NCBI GenBank assembly: GCA_919902665.1
Contig: CAKKRK010000180.1
Span: forward strand, 1 to 55,139
Length of the DNA stretch: 55,139 bases
DNA from: Nitrospiraceae bacterium
GTDB lineage: Bacteria; Nitrospirota; Nitrospiria; Nitrospirales; Nitrospiraceae
Direction of reading: 5' to 3'
Shown: one piece after another, positions 2,564 through 32,871 of the stretch
Position numbering within the stretch: the stretch's first letter is position 1
How the letters are laid out: every line of letters begins with the position of its first letter
Translations under genes and position numbers: made by a program
Notes under the pieces: generated by a model
Told to the model about the DNA's origin: nothing
Database searches by the model: none
The model's input: only the letters and a program-made list of their open reading frames with translations

Positions 2564-2647
2564 AGTTATGATGGCTACTTGTGCCTTTCTCCCTCCGACC
2601 TTTCTAGACGAATACCCTATTTCATTGTCATAGGTATAGATCCGTAT

Positions 2648-2666
2648 GGGCCTAGTTGGTAGGCCC
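2648..2666. promoter_or_regulatory. Small inverted repeat upstream of luxR
   Basis: GGGCCT and AGGCCC form a perfect 6-bp inverted repeat with a 7-base spacer, about 70 bp before the luxR start. It could be an operator or the base of an mRNA hairpin. It does not match the lux-box shape seen at 4397-4420. Weak on its own. Confidence 0.2.
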
Positions 2667-2735
2667 TATTGCAACCTGTTCCGTTTTTCTATACTGTCCC
2701 CCCAATTGGGCACTGTATACATTTGGAGGATCCCT

Positions 2736-3548
2736 ATGGCACAGGTGGCACCGGTTGAAAAAAACAAGCGCCCCTTCCCCCGCCAACTTTTTGAAACCCT
2801 TTCAAAAACTGAATGTACGGCGTTTGTCGAAGCACTCCATTACACGGTTGAAGCGGACTCTACCGCTGATATCAAAGAGGCACTGCTCCAGTTTCAAAAT
2901 TTGTTCCCTTTTACGCGAGTGATTGGAGGCCTTGCTCGCCTCACAGCCAACGGTCGTTTCGACGGGTTTACCAACGTCGTCAATGTTAGCTACCCCGAGG
3001 AATGGCTTCGACTCTACTGGCAAAACGGATATTTTGAGGTTGATCCGGTCTTTCAGACCGCTCTGCAAAAACCCGGCACCCAACATTGGGGGACTACCTA
3101 TCAACAAGCAAGCTCTCCGAAGCAACAGGAATTCATGGCCGCAGCAAAGGACTTTGGACTGGGAGATGGGATTACGACCGGGTCCGCAGATCCAGCTTGC
3201 GGAGTCGCGACCTTCTGCTCCTTTGCTTCCGCCGATCGCGTGGATGCTACGCGATATGTGCCACTCATTGAGTATTTCGGATACTATGTTCATCTGGCGC
3301 TCTTACGCACGGCCCCTGCAAAGGCCCAATCAATGGATCGCTGTGTAAAGCGGTTAACGCTGAGGGAGTTGACGATTCTGAACTGGGTCAAGAATGGCAA
3401 GACGAATTGGGAGATTGCCCAAATTATGGGTGTGACCGAGCGCACAATCCGATTCCATGTCGAAAGTATTTTCTCCAAGCTGGATGTCACATCACGGTCT
3501 CAGGCTGTCGCCACTGCCATTGAACATGGCTTGCCGAATGTGGTCTAG
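2736..3548 (+). CDS. luxR: LuxR-family quorum-sensing transcriptional regulator
   Basis: Autoinducer-responsive regulator of about 270 residues. The N-terminal half is an autoinducer-binding domain with the conserved ligand-pocket pattern: Trp and Tyr in EEWLRLYWQNGYF, the DP pair in EVDPVF, a Trp in QHWG, and the GLGDGIT stretch. The C-terminal 65 residues are a LuxR helix-turn-helix (LTLREL, GKTNWEIAQIMGVTERTIRFHV, SKLDV). The ATG at 2736 was chosen because GGAGGA sits 5 bases upstream; the frame is open back to 2646, but that ATG lacks a good ribosome site. It is convergent with the LuxI-type synthase 50 bp downstream, which makes it the cognate receptor by context. Confidence 0.92.
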   Translation: MAQVAPVEKNKRPFPRQLFETLSKTECTAFVEALHYTVEADSTADIKEALLQFQNLFPFTRVIGGLARLTANGRFDGFTNVVNVSYPEEWLRLYWQNGYFEVDPVFQTALQKPGTQHWGTTYQQASSPKQQEFMAAAKDFGLGDGITTGSADPACGVATFCSFASADRVDATRYVPLIEYFGYYVHLALLRTAPAKAQSMDRCVKRLTLRELTILNWVKNGKTNWEIAQIMGVTERTIRFHVESIFSKLDVTSRSQAVATAIEHGLPNVV

Positions 3549-3569
3549 GCGCTCCGCATGACCTTCATC

Positions 3570-3591
3570 ACGCGGCACCGTGCCACCGCGT
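3570..3591. terminator. Candidate bidirectional hairpin between luxR and luxI
   Basis: ACGCGG at 3570-3575 pairs with CCGCGT at 3586-3591, with further CAC/GTG pairing inside after a small bulge. It sits midway in the 50-bp gap between the convergent luxR and luxI, where a shared terminator is expected. There is no strong T-tract on either strand, so the call is tentative. Confidence 0.35.
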
Positions 3592-3597
3592 CACATG

Positions 3598-4314
3598 TCA
3601 CACCAACGCTGGTACAGCCTGGCTGAAGGTCGAAGTTCGCCCTGTCACCGCGGTGCCTGCTGGGGTCGTTAGCGTAGAGATCCACTCAAGAAACTCCGGC
3701 CGCTTTTGCCCATTCTCTTCGTCAAAACGAACCATGTCGTAGATCGCCGCGACCGCTCCGACTTCGGCAGGTGGCAGCTTCACGACGGGACCAACCGGCT
3801 CACAAGGAAAACCGAGCATGCGAAGGGCTCTCAAGAACCGATGTTCGACTTCGAGGTAATAGTACCGAATCTCGTTTTCCACGGCCCATTGGTAAATCCC
3901 TTTCAACACTCCCAGCATGATTCGGCTTGAAAGCTTCGCATCTCGAATGTCCGGATTGACAGCAAGCCTCGTGATTTCCGCCGTATCCGGCGCTTTCCGT
4001 ATGGCATACCCCTGGTGAAGCAGCGCTCCGAATTCATGCTCCAACATGAATTTCCCCGAGTAAGGAAGGAGGCGCGCCATGCCGAGTAGCATCCCGTCGT
4101 AGCCAAAGACTCCCACCGTAACACCCCAAAGATCATACATGTCCATCTCTTTACCATCCTCTGTCGGTGGCAGCCATTGTAACTTCTCTGCAAAGACGCG
4201 ATGCCGCAACCGATAGGCCTGTTGCAAGTCAGACTCGTCTTTGAGCGTCTTGACGAGAAACTCTCCTTCGTAGAATTCAATCTCTTTATGCGCTCCAGCT
4301 GGTACGACTTGCAC
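3598..4314 (-). CDS. luxI: LuxI-family acyl-homoserine lactone synthase
   Basis: Synthase of 238 residues that would make an acyl-homoserine lactone from S-adenosylmethionine and an acyl donor. It carries the family core: LRHRVFAEKLQW (the R-x3-F...W signature), acidic EMDMYD, the Arg in GMARLLP, and AEITRLAV with the catalytic Glu and Arg. The GTG start at 4314 follows AGAGGAGG at good spacing. Family members are usually about 200-220 residues; the extra length is mainly a C-terminal tail rich in Thr and Gly. A perfect palindrome resembling a lux box lies about 85 bp upstream, implying positive feedback by the convergent LuxR. FeeM-type N-acyl amino acid synthases share the fold, but the conserved LuxI residues favour AHL synthesis. 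The acyl chain cannot be predicted. Confidence 0.9.
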   Translation of the reverse strand: MQVVPAGAHKEIEFYEGEFLVKTLKDESDLQQAYRLRHRVFAEKLQWLPPTEDGKEMDMYDLWGVTVGVFGYDGMLLGMARLLPYSGKFMLEHEFGALLHQGYAIRKAPDTAEITRLAVNPDIRDAKLSSRIMLGVLKGIYQWAVENEIRYYYLEVEHRFLRALRMLGFPCEPVGPVVKLPPAEVGAVAAIYDMVRFDEENGQKRPEFLEWISTLTTPAGTAVTGRTSTFSQAVPALV

Positions 4315-4396
4315 GATGACCTCCTCTTTGGCGGGTAACTGATAGGGCTGATTGTCTGCTTGAGGAGGCGGATGGTTTCATTTCGAGCGACAAACG

Positions 4397-4420
4397 TCAC
4401 CTGGCGTGTCCGCCAGGTGA
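4397..4420. promoter_or_regulatory. Putative lux box (perfect 10-bp inverted repeat)
   Basis: TCACCTGGCG and CGCCAGGTGA are exact reverse complements separated by TGTC. The inner 20 bp has the ACCTG-N10-CAGGT layout of the classical lux box bound by LuxR-type dimers. It lies between the divergent luxI (start 4314) and the kinase gene (start 4513), so one site could control both directions. The seen part is the palindrome; LuxR binding is inferred. Confidence 0.7.
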
Positions 4421-4512
4421 TTTGCTAGTCTCTCTCGCGTACAAGATCCACGTAGAGTCCGCTGTTAAATAGGATTACGAAATGTTTAGATGTAAAAAGG
4501 AGGGATGGTGAC

Positions 4513-5313
4513 GTGACACAAGGCAAGACCAGTTTTCAATTGCTGGACGGTGGACTTCCATCAACATCCACATTGTCAACGGCTCGGTCGGTACGACCAT
4601 CAACGAACTTTCCAGGCCTCTACGAGTTGATGCCTTGCGAAGGTGAGCTAACGACCGCGTTCAAAGCGACGGAAAGCCGGTTGAGTAAACTCCTGGAAGA
4701 CCGGAGCCGTACCGGCCGAGATCTGCATGATTCCGTGCTGCAATCGCTGTATGCCATCGGGTTGAACATAGAAGCAGCTCGGCGAGGCCGAAACGACCAG
4801 ACGGTGGAACGAAAAGAAACTGACGACCAGATAATCCACCAGATCAATCAACTGATTCACGAGGTCCGTGGGATGATTCGCGAGTTAGAGTCGGGAAGTA
4901 TCCAGGAGTTTGACTTGTCGTCGGAGCTCTCCACGTTATGCACGACCTACGAGCAAACGGGGCAGTTATCCGTAAAACTGAATATCCAGCGTGGCACCAT
5001 GGATGTACTGACGCACGAGGAAGAGCGAGAAATCCTGAATATCGTGCGAGAGGCGCTCAGCAACTGCGCGCGCCACGCCGCCGCAACCCGGGCGGTCATC
5101 TCGATCCGCATGCGAGACGCGAGAATTCAGGTGAGCATCCAGGACAATGGCATCGGATTTTCAGCGGCTGGGCAGCCGCGAGGATATGGCCTTGCCAACA
5201 TGGAGGCTCGAGCAAAGCGACTCGGTGGGGCCTTGCGGGTTCAATCCAAGAAAGAAGCAGGGACACACGTCATCGCAGAATTTTCTTTGGAACCTGAGTT
5301 AACATCCATATGA
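4513..5313 (+). CDS. Soluble NarL-type (HisKA_3) sensor histidine kinase
   Basis: Histidine kinase of 266 residues with no membrane segment. After about 60 poorly conserved N-terminal residues comes a HisKA_3 dimerisation domain with the phosphoaccepting His at about residue 72 (GRDLHDSVLQSLY). A HATPase_c domain follows, with the N box (EALSNCARHA), G1 box (DNGIGF) and G2 box (GYGLANM). The GTG start at 4513 is preceded by AAGGAGGG; the nearby ATG at 4505 is out of frame and hits a stop at once. It overlaps the response regulator by 4 bases, so the pair is translationally coupled. The promoter region is shared with luxI and holds the lux-box-like palindrome, suggesting density-dependent expression. 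No sensory domain is recognised. Confidence 0.9.
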   Translation: MTQGKTSFQLLDGGLPSTSTLSTARSVRPSTNFPGLYELMPCEGELTTAFKATESRLSKLLEDRSRTGRDLHDSVLQSLYAIGLNIEAARRGRNDQTVERKETDDQIIHQINQLIHEVRGMIRELESGSIQEFDLSSELSTLCTTYEQTGQLSVKLNIQRGTMDVLTHEEEREILNIVREALSNCARHAAATRAVISIRMRDARIQVSIQDNGIGFSAAGQPRGYGLANMEARAKRLGGALRVQSKKEAGTHVIAEFSLEPELTSI

Positions 5314-5990
5314 AACCATCACCGACCAGCATCATTCTTATTGATGACCATGAGATGGTCCGTCGAGGCTTACGTGCGCTACTTCACCTCGAACCGGATA
5401 TGGCAATCGTCGCAGAGACCGGGACTGTGGCGGACGGCGTAGCGGCCGTGGAGCGTCTCGCCCCAGAGATGGTGTTACTCGACGTAAAACTTCCAGACGC
5501 CTCGCTGACCGAAGCCTGTCGTCGACTGCTGGCCGTTGCACCGAAGCTTCGGATCCTCGTCCTGACCAGTTATGCCGAAGATTCCTCGGTGATGGCTGCC
5601 GTCCAAAACGGAGCCCACGGCTACGTGCTCAAGGATATCCGAATGGACGAGCTGATTCGCGCCATTCGCACCGTCGCCGGCGGCCAAGGGTATCTCGATC
5701 CACGAGTGACCCAACAAGCCCTGCGTTGGATTCGGACCAGTTCACACCTGGGAACGACGTCCCATGGAACCTCTCGACTCTCTCCGCAAGAACGCTTGAT
5801 CCTGCCGCTTCTGGCTGAAGGAAAAACGAACAAGGAGATCGCCGTCCAGCTTCGCTTGAGCGACAAAACGGTGAAAAACTACCTGGCAAATATCTTTGAC
5901 AAGCTTCAAGTCAAGCGTCGGACAGAAGCCGTTGCCTGGTTCATGAAGGAAACCCAGGTACCCGGTGGTGCGAGAAGTCAAGGTTTCTAG
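5310..5990 (+). CDS. NarL/FixJ-family response regulator
   Basis: Response regulator of 226 residues: an N-terminal receiver domain (acidic pair in IDDHEMV, phosphoacceptor Asp at about residue 58 in LLDVKLPD, conserved Lys in VLKDI) and a C-terminal LuxR-type helix-turn-helix (LSPQERLILPLLAEGKTNKEIA, VKNYLANIFDKLQV). It is the evident partner of the HisKA_3 kinase, whose stop codon overlaps its ATG. It would act in the cytoplasm as a DNA-binding activator or repressor. Its targets are unknown; the shared control region with luxI makes quorum-sensing or adhesion genes plausible. Confidence 0.93.
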   Translation: MKPSPTSIILIDDHEMVRRGLRALLHLEPDMAIVAETGTVADGVAAVERLAPEMVLLDVKLPDASLTEACRRLLAVAPKLRILVLTSYAEDSSVMAAVQNGAHGYVLKDIRMDELIRAIRTVAGGQGYLDPRVTQQALRWIRTSSHLGTTSHGTSRLSPQERLILPLLAEGKTNKEIAVQLRLSDKTVKNYLANIFDKLQVKRRTEAVAWFMKETQVPGGARSQGF

Positions 5991-6217: not shown

Positions 6218-6720
6218 GGGAAGGTCTGATTTATTCTTCGCACATGATGTGCTAAAGGAAGCGCAGTCCTGATGAGGAGGCGCACCCATGCAGCAATCGA
6301 CATTTGCCGAGGTCACGTTTGAGCAATATCGCAAGTCCACCCGCCGCGAGCAGTTCCTCGACGAGATGAACCGCGTCGTACCGTGGGCGGAGTTAGTGGC
6401 CGTGATCGAGCCAGTCTATCCCAAGGGCGATGGACCGGGGCGTCCACCGGTTGGGATCGAACGCATGTTGCGGCTTCATTGTCTGCAACAGTGGTTCAAT
6501 CTGTCGGATCCAGCCGTGGAAGAAGCGCTGTACGACTCGCGCGCCATGCGGCAGTTTGTCGGGATTGATCTGGGCCGCGAGCCCGTGCCCGACGAGACGA
6601 CGATCTGCAAGTTTCGGCATCTCTTGGAAGCCCACCAGTTGGGCGAGCAGCTGTTTGCACGGATCGGCACGTATCTGGCGACCCACGGCATCAATACGGG
6701 GCCGGTTCTTGACGGACCAG
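6218..6720 (+). mobile_element. Left-end remnant of an IS5-family insertion sequence
   Basis: GGGAAGGTCTGATTTATTC starts at about 6218, directly after CTAG, and looks like an IS5-type terminal inverted repeat next to its preferred target. The transposase reading frame begins 70 bp later and loses recognisable similarity near 6710. No matching right-hand repeat was found downstream, so only the left part of the element survives. The element marks the border of a decayed stretch reaching to about 7.3 kb. Confidence 0.65.
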
Positions 6721-6854
6721 TATTTCTTGCGATCATAACCAAAGGTATGAACTTCCATCGTATATCACCCTTTCGATCTTGGACTAGGCGGCAACCTGAT
6801 GCCCTGGAGGTATGGCGCCGGCCGCTGCAGAACCACCTGTTGTTCATGCACTGA
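6288..6854 (+). pseudogene. Truncated IS5-family transposase
   Basis: The first 140 or so residues match the N-terminal DUF772 region of IS5-group transposases (PVGIERMLRLHCLQQWFNLSD, EEALYDSRAMRQFVG, PDETTICKFRHLLE). Around residue 140 (after HGINTG) the frame runs into unrelated sequence and stops at 6854. The DDE catalytic core that should follow is missing, so the protein cannot transpose. A typical start is supported by GAGGAGGCGCACCC upstream of the ATG at 6288. The last 45 codons are non-homologous read-through. Confidence 0.8.
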
Positions 6855-7281: not shown

Positions 7282-8469
7282 CTATGCGGCTTTTGGCGGG
7301 GCAGCCGGATGGATCGCACAGTCTCGCGAGGCCATTGGGATCAGCACCGTAAACGGCTGTCGAACTCCGCTGGTTGCACCGAAATTTTGGAGACGCATGA
7401 TCATGGATGGAGTGACTTCCTGGCCCTTTGATGCAAGGAGCACCTCGGTGCTTGACTTGATGTCTTCGCCCAAAATCATTCCTTTATCAAGATTGGCCAC
7501 CGTGGTCGTCCGCATCTCATATTTGATCTCTCGAGCGAATGCCGTTTTCAACGCTTCGACCACCGTCGGATCGTACCAGCCTTTCCGTTGCTTAAGCTGA
7601 TCGAACGCCTCAACCTTCGTCTTGCCCGCCGACTCGAGCGCATCGAAGTCCAGCGCAACCTTCAGAATTCTGGCCTCCATCGGAATCTCATTACCCTGCC
7701 GATGATCGCCCGACACGCCGACCCCGTCATAGTACTTGTCCTGACACTTGATGATTTCCGCCACTCTCATCATCCGTGGGATTTTGGCGACCAGGTCGAA
7801 TGCCACAAAGGGATGTTGATTGAATAGTTGGGATTCTTCAGACGTCAACGCTTCGCCTCGATACACTTTCTTGAGCACCGCTTCCGGCAGAATCACACAG
7901 CCGATCTGGGATAACATAGCGGCGGTTTTGATGGCCCACAGCTCGCTGACATGGAGTTCGGCCGCGATCGCCTCAACATACCGCGTGATACGGGACGACC
8001 GCCCGAATGCCTCAGGGTTGACCAACGACAGCACTTCACACAGTACCCTGATGCTTCCACTGAGGGTATGCTCCAAGAGCTCGTGTTCCGCGGTGATCAA
8101 GCGGTGCTGTGCCAGGCCTGCTTTGAGCGTGTTCGCCAACGCTTCCGGCGTGCAGGGTTTGGTCAAAAATCGGAAGATCTGCCCTTGATTGATGGCGTCG
8201 ATCGACGCCTGAAGATCGGCATTGCCGGTCAGCAGAATCCGGATGGTGTCGGGCGATTGCTCCCGCACCCTGGAGAGAAACTGAATGCCGTTCATGCCCG
8301 GCATTTGCAAGTCGGACACCACCACCGAGAAGGGGCCGCGCGCCTCAAGAATCTTCAGCCCCTCCTGCGGCCCCACGGCCGTTTCTATACTGAACTCCTT
8401 CCGGAGTTGCCGCCGGAATCCGTCAAGAATGCCGGCATCGTCGTCCACACAGAGGATGGCGTCGCTCAT
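7282..8469 (-). CDS. Response regulator with degenerate HD-type output domain
   Basis: A 395-residue protein. The N-terminal receiver domain has the phosphoacceptor Asp at residue 53 (VVSDLQMPGMNG). The output domain is laid out like an RpfG-class HD-GYP domain but has lost the metal-binding residues: where HD-GYP proteins have LHDIGKIGIP it reads LSQIGCVILP, and the HH...GYP part is replaced by KCQDKYYDGVGV. A phosphodiesterase activity is therefore unlikely; it may be a phosphorylation-dependent binding protein. The ATG at 8469 was chosen because GGAGAG precedes it and it overlaps the stop of the HDOD regulator gene (ATGA). The frame is open further upstream, but that stretch overlaps the neighbour. 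Last gene of the six-gene signalling run. Confidence 0.85.
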   Translation of the reverse strand: MSDAILCVDDDAGILDGFRRQLRKEFSIETAVGPQEGLKILEARGPFSVVVSDLQMPGMNGIQFLSRVREQSPDTIRILLTGNADLQASIDAINQGQIFRFLTKPCTPEALANTLKAGLAQHRLITAEHELLEHTLSGSIRVLCEVLSLVNPEAFGRSSRITRYVEAIAAELHVSELWAIKTAAMLSQIGCVILPEAVLKKVYRGEALTSEESQLFNQHPFVAFDLVAKIPRMMRVAEIIKCQDKYYDGVGVSGDHRQGNEIPMEARILKVALDFDALESAGKTKVEAFDQLKQRKGWYDPTVVEALKTAFAREIKYEMRTTTVANLDKGMILGEDIKSSTEVLLASKGQEVTPSMIMRLQNFGATSGVRQPFTVLIPMASRDCAIHPAAPPKAA

Positions 8470-9677
8470 GAAGTGCTCTCCTTTCCTACCGTCATCGCGA
8501 GGGCTTTCCAGTCTGGAAGCCGTTCGGTCAAGTGCAATCTGTCCAGGTAGACGGAATCGATTCGGGCTGAGCTGTGACCGGAACTCTGCGCAACCTGCTC
8601 CTGGTACAGCGCCTTGGCCACGTGCACTGCGGTCAGCGGGCTGAAGCCCTCCCCGCTGACGCAATCTCCCGGCCGATGATGGTACGCCACGGCCTCGACG
8701 ATCGGATCGCTCAGCCCCCAGAGTCCCAGCAGGTAGGCGCCGACTTCGGCATGGGTGGCCCCGAACTCCGCCTGTTCCGCCTCCCAGTCCGGCATGCCTC
8801 CGGTCAACACCTTCGCAAGGACGGCACTGAATCGATCGGCTACGTTCGCCGCCAGCACAAGGGTGCCCACGCTATGCAGCACGCCCGCCGTGTACGCCTG
8901 CTCGACCTCGAGCGGCAGACGCCCTTCCGCCTTGGCAATCGCCCGAGCCAGGGCGCCGGTTCCCATGCTTTCCGCCCACAAACTTTCGATATGGGATACC
9001 ACCGCGCTGTCCTTTGGGAATTGCGAAAAGACATGCACCGACAGCACCAGCGCCTGAATTGTGTCCAACCCCAGGAAACTCACGGCCTGCTCAACCGTCG
9101 AAACGTTCCCGTGGAAGCCAAAAAAGGCCGAGTTAACGAGCTGAAGAATTTTCGCCGTCATGCCCATATCTTTGCCGATGATGGCCCCGATCGCCTTTAA
9201 CGAGGAGGTTTCTGACTCGGCCTCTTTCTTGATCTCTGCAAACAGAGCTGGCAGGCTTGGAATGTCTCGCATCCCCGCCACGAGTCCCCGAAGAGAATCG
9301 TTCGTAAGCAGGTCGCGCAGCGCGCAGGCGCGGTGAATCGTCGTCTTCAGCTGATCCACCTCACAGGGTTTCGCCAGAAACTGATGCGTCGCGCTAATCG
9401 AGTTGTAGATCATGGCCTGGTCGGAATGGCCGGACAGAATAATTCTGACGACATTCGGATAGAGCCGCCGCACCTCGTTCATCAGTTGGGCGCCGTCCAT
9501 GCCTGGCATGCGCATATCCGATACCGCCACATCGAACGAAGCCTGCTCGAGAATCTTCAGCGCCTCCTGGCTGCCGATCGCGAACGTCATGGTCCACTCG
9601 TTCCGCATGGAGCGCAGCGACCGCTTCAGGCCATCCAGGATCTTCGGCTCGTCATCCACAAACAAGATCTGTTTCAT
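8466..9677 (-). CDS. Response regulator with HDOD output domain
   Basis: A 403-residue protein with a receiver domain (phosphoacceptor Asp at residue 54 in AVSDMRMPGMDG, Lys in FLAKPC) followed from about residue 140 by an HDOD domain (IPSLPALFAEI, MTAKILQLVNSAFFG, VEQAVSFLGLDTIQALVLS, YHHRPGD). HDOD proteins are HD-fold relatives without clear catalysis, used as signalling scaffolds. It sits 18 bp downstream of the HD-GYP regulator and overlaps the next regulator by 4 bases. Its partners are probably the two large kinases of the same run. Confidence 0.92.
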   Translation of the reverse strand: MKQILFVDDEPKILDGLKRSLRSMRNEWTMTFAIGSQEALKILEQASFDVAVSDMRMPGMDGAQLMNEVRRLYPNVVRIILSGHSDQAMIYNSISATHQFLAKPCEVDQLKTTIHRACALRDLLTNDSLRGLVAGMRDIPSLPALFAEIKKEAESETSSLKAIGAIIGKDMGMTAKILQLVNSAFFGFHGNVSTVEQAVSFLGLDTIQALVLSVHVFSQFPKDSAVVSHIESLWAESMGTGALARAIAKAEGRLPLEVEQAYTAGVLHSVGTLVLAANVADRFSAVLAKVLTGGMPDWEAEQAEFGATHAEVGAYLLGLWGLSDPIVEAVAYHHRPGDCVSGEGFSPLTAVHVAKALYQEQVAQSSGHSSARIDSVYLDRLHLTERLPDWKALAMTVGKESTS

Positions 9678-9695
9678 GATGATATCTCGCTCGTA

Positions 9696-10817
9696 CTAGG
9701 CGGCATCCGCCAGATCAGTTAGTCGTCCCAGGATCTCGCGAAACGCGGGGAGTGATCGGCGAAACGCCTCATACACAGCCGGATCAAAATGACTGCCGAC
9801 TTTCCTCTGCATGAGGCTCAAAACGACTTCTTCTGGAAATGCAGGCTTGTACGGCCTAGCCGAGCTCAACGCATCGTACACGTCCGCCACGGCGACGATG
9901 CGCGCTTCTACTGGGATGCCCTCTCCGGACAATTGTCGAGGATATCCCGTGCCGTCCCACCACTCGTGATGGGCCAGCGCGATGGAGGAAGCCATTTCGA
10001 GAAAGGGATTGCCTCGGCTCCCGTGCCCATCTGTCGAATCGAGAGGAGATATAGCCTGCATCGGAGAACGCACCCAGGCGTCCTGCCGCAAAATCTCTGC
10101 TCCGATCGCACAATGCCTTCTCATACTGTCCCATTCCGCAGCCGTGAGCTTTCCGGGCCGCAACAGGATGTCATCCGGAATGCCGATCTTCCCGATGTCG
10201 TGCAGAGGGCTGGTCAGAACAATCATCTCGGCAAAGTCTGGCGGCATCCCGAGCGTCTCGGCCAACACCTTGCAGTACGATCCAACCCGTATGATATGGT
10301 TGCCGGTCTGCTCATCGCGAAACTCGGCCACCCGTCCCAGTCGCCAGATCAAGTCGATGCGGGACATATCTAGCGCCCTCGTACGTTCCCGCACTTTGCG
10401 TTCGAGGAGATCGTTCTGCCCACGAATCTGGTCCTGATAGGCCTTCAGTCTGAGCACGCTCCGGATGCGCGCAATCAGATCGGCGTGATCGACGGGTTTG
10501 TTCAGCAGGTCCGTCGCGCCCTGATCCAAGGCGCGCCGTTTCAAATCCCGCTCGGCCGCGCCGGTCATGATGATGACAGGGACATGACACAAGTCCGCCG
10601 ACATCGCAATCCGTTGGAGCAGATCGAACCCGTTTCGATGAGGCATTTGCAGGTCCGAGACGACGGTATCGATGTTCAACTCTTCAAGTTGCTGAAGCGC
10701 CTCATCCACACTCGCTGCGAACGTCATGGTCCATTCCCCGGCATGGGGATGGAGCATCCGGCGGAGGCCGTCGAGAAAACTCGGATCGTCATCGACGAAC
10801 AGCACGTGCGGATTCAT
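9696..10817 (-). CDS. RpfG-type response regulator with HD-GYP phosphodiesterase domain
   Basis: A 373-residue protein: receiver domain (phosphoacceptor Asp at residue 55 in VVSDLQMPHRNG, Lys in LNKPV), a short coiled-coil linker (QNDLLERKVRERTRAL) and a complete HD-GYP domain with LHDIGKIGIP, HHEWWDGTGYP and VADVYDAL. HD-GYP domains hydrolyse cyclic di-GMP, and all signature residues are present. The start at 10817 overlaps the stop of the kinase gene (ATGA), which is why the longer open frame upstream was rejected. By position it is the direct output of the adjacent kinase. A PilZ protein, the usual c-di-GMP receptor, is encoded at 47.4 kb. Confidence 0.93.
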   Translation of the reverse strand: MNPHVLFVDDDPSFLDGLRRMLHPHAGEWTMTFAASVDEALQQLEELNIDTVVSDLQMPHRNGFDLLQRIAMSADLCHVPVIIMTGAAERDLKRRALDQGATDLLNKPVDHADLIARIRSVLRLKAYQDQIRGQNDLLERKVRERTRALDMSRIDLIWRLGRVAEFRDEQTGNHIIRVGSYCKVLAETLGMPPDFAEMIVLTSPLHDIGKIGIPDDILLRPGKLTAAEWDSMRRHCAIGAEILRQDAWVRSPMQAISPLDSTDGHGSRGNPFLEMASSIALAHHEWWDGTGYPRQLSGEGIPVEARIVAVADVYDALSSARPYKPAFPEEVVLSLMQRKVGSHFDPAVYEAFRRSLPAFREILGRLTDLADAA

Positions 10818-13800
10818 GCTGCTTGCTCCCTTTCTTCCATCTCGCGCCTCTCGCCGGATCCCTGCACCGGCAGGCGGATGATGAAGGTGGTCCCTTGGCC
10901 GACCTGGCTCTCGACGGTGATCATACCGTGATGCTTGCCCACCACGACGGAACGGGCAATGGCCAGGCCCTGTCCCGTCCCCTTGCCGACTTCCTTTGTC
11001 GTAAAGAACGGATCGAAGATCTTGTGCCGGATGTGCTCCGGGATGCCCGTCCCATTGTCCGTGATGCGGATCTCGGCCCAGTCGTCGACCCGGCGGGACG
11101 TGATCGAGATGATCCCCTTCTGGCCAGTGCTCTCGACCACATCGCCGATCGCGTGGGCGGCATTCACGATCAGATTGAGAATCACCTGATTGAATGGGCC
11201 CTGGAGGCAGGGCACCAGGGGGAGGTCGGGGGCCAGATCGGTCGTCAAGTCGGCGACGTACTTCCATTCGTTGCGCGAGACCTCCACTGTGCTCCCGATA
11301 GCCTTGTTAAGATCCACGCAGGCCTTCTCCTCGCTCCCCGGATGGGCAAAGTCTTTCATCGCGCGCACGATCTTGGCGATCCGATCGGTGCCCTCGGCGG
11401 ATTGCGCAATGGCTTTGGGGAGTTCCTCCGTCAGATAGTCGAGATCGGCCCGTTGCGATTCCAATTCGCAGGCTTCGATTATGTCCGGCGCGCAGGCTCC
11501 GGTCTTAGCGGACGCTAGAAGCTCCCGATGCCGAGCCAGAACGGTGAGGAGGCCGGTGAGGGAGTCCGACAGGAAGCGGAGGTTGTCGCCCACAAATTGT
11601 GTGGGCGTGTTGATTTCGTGCGCGATGCCCGCCGCCAGGTGCCCGATAGACTCAAGCTTCTGCGCCTGCGCCAGGTCGTACTCCAGACGGAACCGCTCGG
11701 TCACATCCTCGCCCATGAGCACATGGGACATACCGCCACAGCCATCCTGGATCGGCGACAGGATCAGTTTGAGGAATCTCGTTTCCCCTTCTGGAAGATC
11801 CAGCCGTATCTTGTCCAGCTGGATAGACTTCAACGTTTCATTGGCCTTCCCTATGGCCCCAAGAATTTCCCCCCAATTCCACTGGATGGGAAGCTTTTCG
11901 AAGGGCCGGCCAAGCGCTTCGGAAGGAGGAATGCTGAAGATATCCGCTGCACGAGGCGTCCATTCCGTGACTCCCCCCCCCTGACCGACGCGCACAAAGA
12001 AGACTGCCGCCGCAGCAAGGATCTCTGCTTTTTCTCGCGCGGCTTGTGCTGCTTGATCCGTCGCCCGTTGCAGCTGCTCCTCCGCCCGCAGGCGCACGAG
12101 AAACTGGCCGACTTTGATCCCCAGATCACGCATGACCCAGAGCACGATGTCTTTCCTCGGACGGGGATCACGACTGAAGAACTCCAGCAGAGCCAGAACC
12201 TCACCTCCACCCAGAATGGGAATACACAGGCGGCACCGCATACCCGCCGGAGCCGCAGCCGCAGCCGAATCACTCTCGCGGGGGCAATCCTTATCCAGAT
12301 CCGTGTCCCAAGTCGGGAGCCGACTCCCTCCACCGAGGGGCGGCCCTGAGAATGAGATCCCTGAAGAGCCGTTGATCAAACCATCACACGATACGGATTC
12401 GTCAACTAGGACAGCCGGCACTGCCCACATAGCCACGCAGCGCGGCGCATTGGGAGCAGGCTGCAGCATCCAGTATCGACCCAGATGCCATCCCATACCC
12501 TCACCGATAGTCGCTAACAGTTTGGAAATAGTCTCCTCGACAGTGCCTTGCTCCATCAGGATCTGACTGACGGATAGCTGTAGCCTTTGCCGCCTCTCCG
12601 CTTCCCGGCGTAGCGCCAGGCTCTGCCGCAGTCGCTCACGAAAGATATCGCGAAACATTCTGGTGCCGATGAGCAGCATGCTCCCGATCACGATGAACAG
12701 CGCCAGTCCGATGAGGGAGAGCCGCTTGGCTTGGAGTTGGCTGGTCACGGCAAAGACTTCGTCCGCTCGGATATGGACCATCAGGCACCCGCCGCCGATC
12801 TCCGGAACATTCCGATAGGCCATCACCGTGGGTACATTCTCATAGTCTGGCGTGATCGCGAGCGAACTGCGTTCTCCTTGAAGGCAGCGCCTCATAGCGT
12901 CAGCTGTGATTTCATGTGCCGATCCCTCGCCATGACTTGGACGCGAATATCTAAGGTTGGTCAGGGGACGACCGAGACGGTCGGCGAGAAAGCTTTCGCC
13001 GGTGGTTCCGAGCCCAACCCGGCTCGCGAACAGATCCATGGTCGACACCGTGCTGGCATTGGCCAGCAGAACACCAAGCGGCCGGGAGGGCATTGCGGGA
13101 TCTTCGACCGGAACACCAAGGAGCAAGACCAGTTTGCCATCATCCTCTCTTTCAAAGTGAACCAATGGCTCCTTGAGCGCCAACGCCATGTCGGCATCCC
13201 ATCGGCCTAGGGACGTTCCCTCGAAGGACCCCCATGCGGCGTGTCGAGTGCTCCCAGGAGCGACCGCAAGGAGCAAGCCGTGAAACGAGGTACTGGCTTG
13301 CACCTCGGACAGCGTCGCGCGAGGTGATGCCTGCTTCGCGCTTCTCAACCGCCTCGCGACATCCTGGACTGGAGCACCCTGAGCGATCTGCTTTAACGCC
13401 GTCAGTTGCTCACCAATGATGCGGGCGAACGCCTGCTGGCGTTCGTCAGCGAGGACGCCAAGACGGATCGTGTATTCGGCCAGAAGAATCCTCTCGGATT
13501 GCAGGTAACTGAGATAGCCGACAGCACTGACCGCCGCCACCGAGAGAGCCAATATCACGCCCATAAAGCGGAATGGCTTGAGTGCCAGTACAGACCGAAC
13601 CTTTCGACTGGCCGGCGCGGGATCATGGCGGCGCAGGCTGAATACACCCACCGAAAGGACCATCAAGGTCAACGCGGCGGGCGAGGCCATGGTTGCAGAT
13701 GGATCGGCGCCTGAGAACGATCGGCCTTCAGAGGACAACTCGAAGAGTGATGCGACGATTGGCACGACCGAGAACAAAGCGGCGAGAAGACCTATGCCTC

Positions 13801-18379: not shown

Positions 18380-20899
18380 CTAGAATGCTGGTGCCAGAAT
18401 CCCACTGGCATCTCGCCAGTGGGGCGTCCAGGCAAGGGCGACGAGCTTGACGGCAATATTGGCTTTGGTGGGCTTGATGGAGATCGTTTCGAGCTTTTCG
18501 TTCAGCGGATCGGTCGCCGCAGCCAATGCCTCGCTTTCTGACTTAAACTGCGCTTCGAGATCGGCCAGCTGCTGCTGAAGGGCCGCAACATTTTCTTCGG
18601 CCACACCAACATCCTTAGACTCCTTCATCACGCGACCTGCGCTCCGGACTGCCGTCGTGGCACGTCCGATATTCGAGGCGCTGATTGTCTTCCGCCCGAG
18701 AAAGGCCCCGAGGATGGACGCTCCGACCGAAATCGCCGCCTGAACCTGGCTCGAACGGGATTCGGCTTGCTGTTTTTCCTTTGCCAGTTCAGCCCGCCTG
18801 ATGCGGTCTTGAAGCGTGGCAATCTTCGAGGCATATTTTTGACGAAGTGTTTCAGCACCCTTATCGCGCTGCTCCCGCCCGGTCTGCTGCAATCGAACCC
18901 GAAAACCTCGTTCAGACTCCTCCGGTTGAGAGACCACTTTGGTGCTCGGGCTTCTAAACAACTCCACCTTTTGCGTCCGGAAGAGCCACCCCCCGAAATC
19001 CTTGTTCCAATCTGCATAACTCTTGGCCTTGCCTGCGCTCGCAGGCAAGGCAAGAAACTGTGCGCCCTCCTCTGGATTCTGTTCCAGATCGGCAACTGCC
19101 AAGTCCGCCGCTGTGGCCTTGTCCCAATCGACGGCAACAGGTCCATCCGCGATGGGAGCCAATACCGTCACATCCTGCATGCTATCGACGCCGCTCTTCG
19201 AATCGGAGAAGCGAGTTTGCGACGACCCCAGTAACATCGGGACATAGACCAATTCGCTCCCTTCTGGCTTCGAGCCCCGTCGCGGCACAAAATGCTGGGG
19301 AACATCTGGAGGCAGCATGGGACGTGATTTCAGGGTTGAGGACTGTGTACTCAGTGCCGAGCGAGAAGTCTCAGTCCTCAGTCCTCGCTGCTCAGTCCTG
19401 TGGGGTTCCATCAGCGTCTTGATCTGCGTCCTGGTCAGCGGCCCACGGAGGTAGGACAGGCACCAGCGCGTCTCAAACACAACTGGTTCGTCCTCATGCA
19501 CGTTATTCATCAGGAAGATCCGACTGCTGAGGCCAGCCAGCGTTTGCTCCATGCGGCCCCGATCGAACTTCTTCCCGGCGCTACTCGAAGCGCCTTCCAA
19601 TCCCTCCAAGACGCGGGCCTTATCCCGTTCGGTCTGTAGCCGTCCAATAAACCAAGTGCCGGTGTTCGCCAAGCCCTTATAGTCGAGGTCGACAGGATTC
19701 TGCGTCGCGAGCACGACCCCCAAACCGAATGCGCGCGCCTGTTTGAGCAAGGTCATCAACGGCAGCTTCGAGGGAGGATTGGCCACCGGTGGGAAGTAAC
19801 CGAAGATCTCGTCCATATAGAGCAGTGCGCGCAGGCTGGTCGTGCCCGATTGCGCCCTCATCCACCCGACCATTTGACTGAGTAACAGCGTCACGAAGAA
19901 CATGCGCTCAGCATCATTCAAATGCGCGATGGAAAAGATCGCATGGCGCGGTTTGCCAGCCGACGTATACATCAGCGACTGAATGTCAAGGGCTTCCCCC
20001 TCGAGCCAGGCCTGAAACCCCGGCGCAGCGAGGAGATTGTTCAGTTTCATAGCCAGCGCAAACCGATCTTTCGAAGGAAAGAACGAATCGACATCCATCA
20101 CGCCAATCTTTGATACTGGCGGCGATTGAATGGCTTGGATCAATGATGCGAGATCAAGATCCTCTTCTTTCTTCCAGGTCTGATCGAGAATCGTAGAGAG
20201 AAGAATATGCTCACGGCTCTGAATCGGATCGGCCTCGATGCCGAGCAAGCCGAGCAAACTCGTGACGGTCGTGCTGATACGCTCACGCAGCAACTCCGCA
20301 TCTTCCCGCACGTCGGCAGCTGGTGAGGCAAACGATTTGAGAATCGAAACCGGCAACCCGGCATTGCTCCCGGGCGTATAGATCGCCACATCCGCTGCAT
20401 CCCGCAGCCGCTGAATCCTAGCGCCATCCTGTTGCCAACCAGCCAAGCCCTTCGTCCAGAGTTCTGCTTGTGCTTGAGCGTAGTCTGCTGGTGACAAGCC
20501 TTTCTTGAGCGCATCGTCTTCATTGATCCAGGGTTGGAAGTCCTCGCCCTTGAGAGACGGGAACGTGAGCATCAAATTGCCGAGATCGCCTTTGGGGTCG
20601 ATGATAATGGCTGGGATGTTATCGATCGCAGCTTCTTCAAGGAGCGCCAGACAAAGACCCGTCTTGCCGCTGCCGGTCATGCCGACGCAGACCGCGTGCG
20701 TCACCAGATCTTTCGAATCGTACAGGAGCCATCCCGGCTTGGCCTGTTTGGCCGCGAGATCATAGGGCCGCCCCATGTAAAAGACACCGAGCTTTTCGAA
20801 ATCTTCGGCAGTAGAGGGAGCGCCTGTAGCCGATGGCGTAGATTTCTTGGCGACACTCTCGGCTTTTGCACTCGAATCGGTCTTCTTCGCCTTCGGCAT
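18380..20899 (-). CDS. HerA/FtsK-type ATPase (DUF87/DUF853-like)
   Basis: An 839-residue cytoplasmic protein. After a Lys/Ser/Ala-rich N-terminal tail comes an ATPase core with Walker A GMTGSGKTG (about residue 72) and Walker B LLYMDEIFGYFP, plus the sensor-like ATQNPVDLDYKGL. This fits HerA-like helicase/translocase ATPases that thread DNA or remodel complexes. The second half has a low-complexity linker, a coiled-coil region (LQDRIRRAELAKEKQQ, LAALQQQLADLEAQF-like) and a Gly/Ala segment that could contact membranes. RBS GGGAGA precedes the ATG. The C-terminal tail is duplicated at 7076-7207. The linker at about 19330-19400 is built on a repeated CTCAGTCC-type sequence. The exact role is unknown. 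Confidence 0.8.
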   Translation of the reverse strand: MPKAKKTDSSAKAESVAKKSTPSATGAPSTAEDFEKLGVFYMGRPYDLAAKQAKPGWLLYDSKDLVTHAVCVGMTGSGKTGLCLALLEEAAIDNIPAIIIDPKGDLGNLMLTFPSLKGEDFQPWINEDDALKKGLSPADYAQAQAELWTKGLAGWQQDGARIQRLRDAADVAIYTPGSNAGLPVSILKSFASPAADVREDAELLRERISTTVTSLLGLLGIEADPIQSREHILLSTILDQTWKKEEDLDLASLIQAIQSPPVSKIGVMDVDSFFPSKDRFALAMKLNNLLAAPGFQAWLEGEALDIQSLMYTSAGKPRHAIFSIAHLNDAERMFFVTLLLSQMVGWMRAQSGTTSLRALLYMDEIFGYFPPVANPPSKLPLMTLLKQARAFGLGVVLATQNPVDLDYKGLANTGTWFIGRLQTERDKARVLEGLEGASSSAGKKFDRGRMEQTLAGLSSRIFLMNNVHEDEPVVFETRWCLSYLRGPLTRTQIKTLMEPHRTEQRGLRTETSRSALSTQSSTLKSRPMLPPDVPQHFVPRRGSKPEGSELVYVPMLLGSSQTRFSDSKSGVDSMQDVTVLAPIADGPVAVDWDKATAADLAVADLEQNPEEGAQFLALPASAGKAKSYADWNKDFGGWLFRTQKVELFRSPSTKVVSQPEESERGFRVRLQQTGREQRDKGAETLRQKYASKIATLQDRIRRAELAKEKQQAESRSSQVQAAISVGASILGAFLGRKTISASNIGRATTAVRSAGRVMKESKDVGVAEENVAALQQQLADLEAQFKSESEALAAATDPLNEKLETISIKPTKANIAVKLVALAWTPHWRDASGILAPAF

Positions 20900-32214: not shown

Positions 32215-32871
32215 ATGGAACACGGTATGGAGCTGACAGTCACTCACATGGTAAGGAAGTCTCCCTCTTCCTCACCATCTGATTCCCCCTTTGGATCCTG
32301 CCCATCCAGAGCAGCACTGCCACCTTCCGCCGTTGCCGCCGGTGCTGTGCCTCCTCAAAGAGGCACAGCCCGGCCTGACGCGCATCCCATTGCCGTGAGA
32401 CCAAGTGAGCCGGTTCAGATAGCCCCTTTCATTTACAATTCTGAGACAGCTCACGCGCAGCTGGCATTAGACCCAGATCACAGACTGAGTCCAGACACGA
32501 ACGTGAGGGTCGAAGTGAGAACAGCCCGTTCAATTTTGGTTGTCGAGGATGACCCTGATATCGCGATGGCCCTACAAGACTTGCTCGAGTTTGAAGGATT
32601 CCATGTTAACTGTGCACAGACCTGTCGCCAGGCCTTTTCATCCATCGAACAAAATGCCTACCATGCCATCCTCCTTGATCTCGGCCTACCTGATGGAGAT
32701 GGTTGCTCGATCTTGGAGAAGCTCCAAGTTTCACATCCCACCCTTCCCGTGATCGTCTTAACGGCTTCAAATAGGAACCTAGGGTCCCTACGCGCCTATG
32801 CCCGTTTGACCAAACCGTGGGAGCGAGACCAGTTGTGTACGATACTTCGCCACGCCATCGGCATGGCATGA
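32215..32871 (+). CDS. Response regulator with disordered N-terminal extension
   Basis: A 218-residue protein. The first 100 or so residues are Pro/Ser/Ala-rich with no domain seen. A receiver domain then follows (ILVVEDDPDIA, phosphoacceptor Asp in AILLDLGLPDGDG, TAS, and KPW for the conserved Lys). No output domain follows. The start is uncertain, since several in-frame Met codons exist before the receiver domain and no clear RBS is seen; the extension may be an over-long call. No kinase lies next to it. Confidence 0.75.
   Translation: MEHGMELTVTHMVRKSPSSSPSDSPFGSCPSRAALPPSAVAAGAVPPQRGTARPDAHPIAVRPSEPVQIAPFIYNSETAHAQLALDPDHRLSPDTNVRVEVRTARSILVVEDDPDIAMALQDLLEFEGFHVNCAQTCRQAFSSIEQNAYHAILLDLGLPDGDGCSILEKLQVSHPTLPVIVLTASNRNLGSLRAYARLTKPWERDQLCTILRHAIGMA

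Follow-up and report, generated by a model that had tools for sequence, protein, structure and literature searches.

We analysed a 55,139-nucleotide stretch of DNA from a Nitrospiraceae bacterium (hereafter the window), in which a luxR-luxI pair and a two-component gene pair are arranged around a short palindrome. The local order is uvrC (plus strand), fadL (minus), luxR (plus), luxI (minus), palindrome, histidine kinase (plus) and response regulator (plus), and the palindrome lies inside the 198-bp spacer that separates the divergent GTG start codons of luxI (4314) and of the kinase (4513). The features discussed below are as follows.

2736-3548, plus strand: luxR, AHL receptor with Autoind_bind and GerE domains (the longest ORF starts at 2646)
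3598-4314, minus strand: luxI, AHL synthase (Autoind_synth)
4320-4326, minus strand: ribosome-binding site GAGGAGG of luxI, from sequence
4370-4380, minus strand: conserved luxI-side element TGAAACCATCC, equally offset from the box
4397-4420, no strand assigned: lux box, with the 20-bp core 4399-4418, ACCTGGCG-TGTC-CGCCAGGT
4440-4445, plus strand: TACAAG, a -10-like hexamer for the kinase promoter, placed at +41 relative to the box start, with a predicted transcript start near 4452
4498-4504, plus strand: ribosome-binding site AGGAGGG of the kinase gene, from sequence
4513-5313, plus strand: HisKA_3/HATPase_c histidine kinase, GTG start
5310-5990, plus strand: NarL-type response regulator, its start overlapping the kinase stop

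No recognised sensor domain was found in the kinase. Beyond the locus, an IS5-type transposase fragment (DUF772; 6288-6854, plus strand) lies just 3' of the response regulator, and a run of ORFs 3' of the quorum locus (7282-11267, minus strand) reads like response regulators with HD/HDOD-type output regions.

The palindrome is an exact 10-4-10 inverted repeat, TCACCTGGCG-TGTC-CGCCAGGTGA, whose core reads ACCTG-N10-CAGGT without deviation, and it stands upstream of luxI and beside a luxR with both autoinducer-binding and GerE domains. The first-pass annotation had described this repeat, its lux-box geometry and its position between divergent luxI and HisKA_3 kinase genes, and all three descriptions hold. 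In Vibrio fischeri, the lux box at luxI is a 20-bp ACCTG-N10-CAGGT dyad placed at the class II distance to the -10 and mediating luxI autoinduction. The window's box resembles it in the 20-bp dyad, the class II -10 distance and the place at luxI, with its predicted autoinduction, but differs in the inner bases; moreover, luxR and luxI are convergent here, and luxI shares the box with the two-component operon rather than with luxR.

Apart from the lux box, the window holds one perfect 10-4-10 palindrome (at 19027), where simulations of the same composition (Markov-1) predict 0.025 per window. The window's two perfect long inverted repeats besides the lux box, at 19026-19051 and 32344-32369, are unrelated to it in sequence. 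A scan of the whole genome (3.56 Mb, 240 contigs, 99.9% complete) for further copies, which the first-pass annotation had proposed, matched the 16 fixed bases of the core once; as for a wider direct regulon, every other site in this genome has at least 2 mismatches, the runner-up carrying 2 in the 16 fixed bases, and gaps in the MAG may conceal additional sites. Sites with 3 mismatches, considered as an extra regulon, look like background (26 against 17 for a reversed control) and were rejected.

Relatives of LuxI are found in 62 of the 79 genomes of the genus Nitrospira, and the box lies upstream of luxI in 60 of these 62, down to a LuxI identity of 43%. Conservation was scored with the pattern CCTGGC-N6-GCCAGG, which nearly always extends to the full ACCTGGCG-N4-CGCCAGGT. 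In one of the two exceptions luxI lies at a contig end (G044), while the other has luxI and luxR but neither a box nor an adjacent close relative of the kinase (G014). The central 4 bp of the box vary freely across the Nitrospira loci and the arms are constant, an invariance that for the 12 inner bases fixed by the collecting pattern is partly by construction, with the count of 60 in 62 unaffected. The site travels with luxI: a 14-base pattern is present in none of the 17 luxI-less Nitrospira genomes, though many of these retain the kinase and regulator. The 16-base pattern is carried by 82 of the 175 genomes from the wider family, spread over 5 of its 22 genera, and in the four genera other than Nitrospira most examined boxes are flanked by luxI and by a HisKA_3 kinase or response regulator. 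A lack of conservation in close relatives, which the first-pass annotation had named as refuting its reading, is contradicted by these counts, since the box is kept throughout the genus and reaches four further genera of the family. Judged from these sequences, the palindrome is very probably a quorum-sensing operator site, and it has changed very little within the Nitrospira family.

Outside the locus, 14-base matches in the genus are confined to two genomes (G003 and G069), about as frequent as in a reversed-pattern control (1, in G077) and by chance (about 1 per 79 genomes), and we therefore do not claim them as targets. Box-like palindromes away from luxI (L129:3853, L131:3794, L132:3799, L134:3754 and L138:3803) may be chance occurrences or extra targets; that of L132 lies between the gene for a TIG-domain protein and S49/M48 peptidase genes, and that of L134 at a class II aldolase-like gene. 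A locus titled uncultured Nitrosospira (L035, CAADGK010000016.1) is Nitrospira-like, with 80% LuxI identity and the same gene order, and is probably mislabelled.

Classical lux boxes sit at luxI, and the box might serve luxI only, with the kinase placed downstream by an accident of gene order and transcribed from a promoter of its own. The spacing of the box argues against this. Across 46 loci the kinase-proximal box keeps a distance of 84-130 bp from the kinase start, also in long spacers, while luxI and the kinase are anywhere from 164 to 1011 bp apart (for the relatives, kinase start codons were placed by extrapolation from the protein encoded in the window). Three single-box loci (L055, L073 and L077) place the box near the kinase (89-99 bp) and far from luxI (252-256 bp). 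In 16 loci a long spacer contains two or three boxes, and the 13 of these whose kinase start can be measured all have one box 84-103 bp from the kinase and another 93-132 bp from luxI. On the kinase/regulator tree, box number changed at least 7 times, with 4 of the changes on well-supported branches; the loci are related and their counts are not independent events, so this tree-based minimum of 4 to 7 changes is the safer figure. Loss of luxI speaks against a luxI-only box as well, since four luxI-less genomes (G023, G039, G051 and G068) retain a box with one mismatch at roughly 100 bp from the kinase. In a further genome, from another genus (G140, locus L147), an exact box stands about 110 bp from the kinase at a locus where luxI is absent and uvrC is now close by; no LuxR match was found in this assembly, which is 83% complete.

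The promoter elements beside the box point the same way. When loci are aligned on the box, the best TATAAT-like hexamer on the kinase side falls at +41 (z 3.9; TA in 68% of thinned loci), an offset that equals the class II lux promoter distance, with the box centre near -42.5. The corresponding spacing is weak on the luxI side, leaving the clearest -10 on the side that a luxI-only box would not serve. A luxI-side consensus, TGRAACCATCC, is conserved at a constant distance from the box throughout most of the genus, and could possibly be a weak extended -10 or the site of another regulator. No sigma-70 promoter passed a simple consensus scan. The box is symmetric, so its sequence by itself is no proof that it acts in both directions in this genome.

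Use of both directions has been demonstrated at a sister site. In a 2021 study of a sludge Nitrospira, 61 predicted lux-box regions were cloned, and a strong response to the LuxR of that organism (NspR1) and C8-HSL came from two, which represent both directions of one shared box, ACCTGGCGGTTCCGCCAGGT (Nspbox1/2; PMC8553950). The nspI promoter was activated 14-fold and that of the divergent gene, which carried a GGDEF/EAL annotation, 196.6-fold, and the gel shift needed RNA polymerase and an intact box; the screen drew no response from 59 of its 61 predicted boxes, with one more responding only when a sigma factor was added (PMC8553950). The NspR1/NspI box shares with the window the 8-bp arms ACCTGGCG/CGCCAGGT and the location in a divergent luxI promoter; it differs in its central 4 bp (GTTC against TGTC) and in its divergent gene, which in the window encodes a HisKA_3 kinase. 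No GGDEF/EAL neighbour was found at the boxes examined here. Since the sister box activates both ways with LuxR and C8-HSL (PMC8553950), the operator is already known; the window's box is a further member, and its kinase as divergent partner is the usual arrangement in our survey. The proposal of the first-pass annotation that the quorum signal could drive signal synthesis together with the two-component system is supported by the spacing, the duplicate boxes, the kinase-side -10 and the boxes kept after luxI loss, and it also agrees with these reporter and gel-shift data. That the published assay gave its higher activation in the divergent direction again disfavours a box serving luxI only, and we consider that reading improbable.

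In Chromobacterium, the CviR box, given as CTGNCCNNNNGGNCAG in PMC12114271, fits the window's frame as CTGGCG-N4-CGCCAG but for one base per half site, base six being G there and C in the window's box. CviR is the nearest solved relative of the window's LuxR, but the Chromobacterium regulon has many direct targets, whereas the window's genome has one site. The spread of luxI in Nitrospirales has been reported, in passages that do not discuss the operator (PMC12342949), and our literature search for a lux box with a kinase in this setting found nothing. What appears new beyond the literature is the predicted divergent output, a kinase without a recognised sensor domain together with a NarL regulator, which is found throughout the genus and in some other members of the family. 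New as well are the near-uniqueness of the box in each genome and, described below, the exchange of luxRI alleles behind it and the LuxR-like proteins that lack the AHL domain in lineages without luxI.

The palindrome could also be the operator of another regulator acting on both genes, such as the adjacent NarL-type response regulator, which is likewise conserved at the locus; GerE-type regulators can bind inverted repeats. We hold this to be very unlikely: the 14-base pattern is missing from all 17 luxI-less genomes, many of them with kinase and regulator, LuxR binding to the sister box in vitro depends on that box being intact (PMC8553950), and the sequence has the frame of a lux box. A transcription terminator or structured RNA hairpin would fit the stable fold of the palindrome, which has -24 to -25 kcal/mol and a z of about -5 whichever strand is folded, but is extremely unlikely and was rejected, since the palindrome lies upstream of both genes, no T run follows the stem and no terminator was found, and a search for compensatory stem changes gave none, with changes at the arm positions left free by the pattern (TC, GG and GA) breaking pairs. 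Invariant arms, a variable spacer and uncompensated arm changes argue for a protein-binding DNA site, not an RNA stem.

Compared with the window, three loci (L048, L057 and L075) have 96-98% identity in UvrC, 96% in the regulator and 87-90% in the kinase, but only about 40% in the AHL domain of LuxR and 44-58% in LuxI; the HTH is more conserved (68-84%). Window positions 2646-5990 and these loci represent strongly diverged luxR-luxI alleles within nearly identical flanks, and several allelic classes occur in one kinase clade. The LuxI tree conflicts with the kinase/regulator tree (AU p = 1e-5 and 6e-5), and the box arms are unchanged throughout the exchange of luxRI alleles. The luxR-luxI cassette is, by these sequence comparisons, exchanged behind a constant box. 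We hypothesize that the two-box loci are recombination scars of luxRI exchange. A comparison of box flanks fits this idea at L048 and L064, where the flank of the kinase-side box matches resident-clade loci (L055/L032), and at L036, where the luxI-side box bears a kinase-type flank like that of L051/L053; for other two-box loci the comparison is uninformative.

In luxI-less Nitrospira, a LuxR-like protein of 180-184 amino acids (L140:4133-4687, L141:2779-3333, L143:2673-3227 and L145:2670-3212) adjoins the one-mismatch lux box and the kinase/regulator pair. A GerE domain was found in this short protein and an autoinducer domain was not. The first 40 residues (of the 184-amino-acid form) weakly resemble LuxR N-termini, a likeness that suggests internal loss of the AHL-binding core. 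Its place beside the one-mismatch box looks like AHL-independent rewiring, as far as sequence can indicate.

Taken together, these data make it highly probable that the palindrome serves the linked LuxR-type receptor as its operator, activating luxI and the kinase/regulator operon. At high AHL, LuxR dimers would occupy the 20-bp site and bring in RNA polymerase for transcription both ways, as established for the sister site (PMC8553950), so that the luxI side would provide positive feedback and the kinase/response-regulator side the output. The kinase pair would relay the signal to other genes, a role that we infer because the box is essentially the sole such site in the genome; with a practically single-copy box, the two-component pair is likely the relay. 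More tentatively, quorum sensing in Nitrospira may be a one-operator circuit, in which LuxR controls little beyond luxI and the sensorless kinase/NarL pair as sole broadcaster, luxR and luxI are swapped between strains as allelic types that set who hears whom, with the box and the kinase output held constant, and some luxI-less lineages keep the circuit with a LuxR-like protein lacking the AHL-binding core.

Nitrospira are the main nitrite oxidisers and include the comammox bacteria. In this genus, the conserved and near-unique box points to one quorum output, the kinase/NarL pair, and a fixed box with exchangeable luxRI alleles would, if true, offer a natural system for the diversification of signals and receptors.
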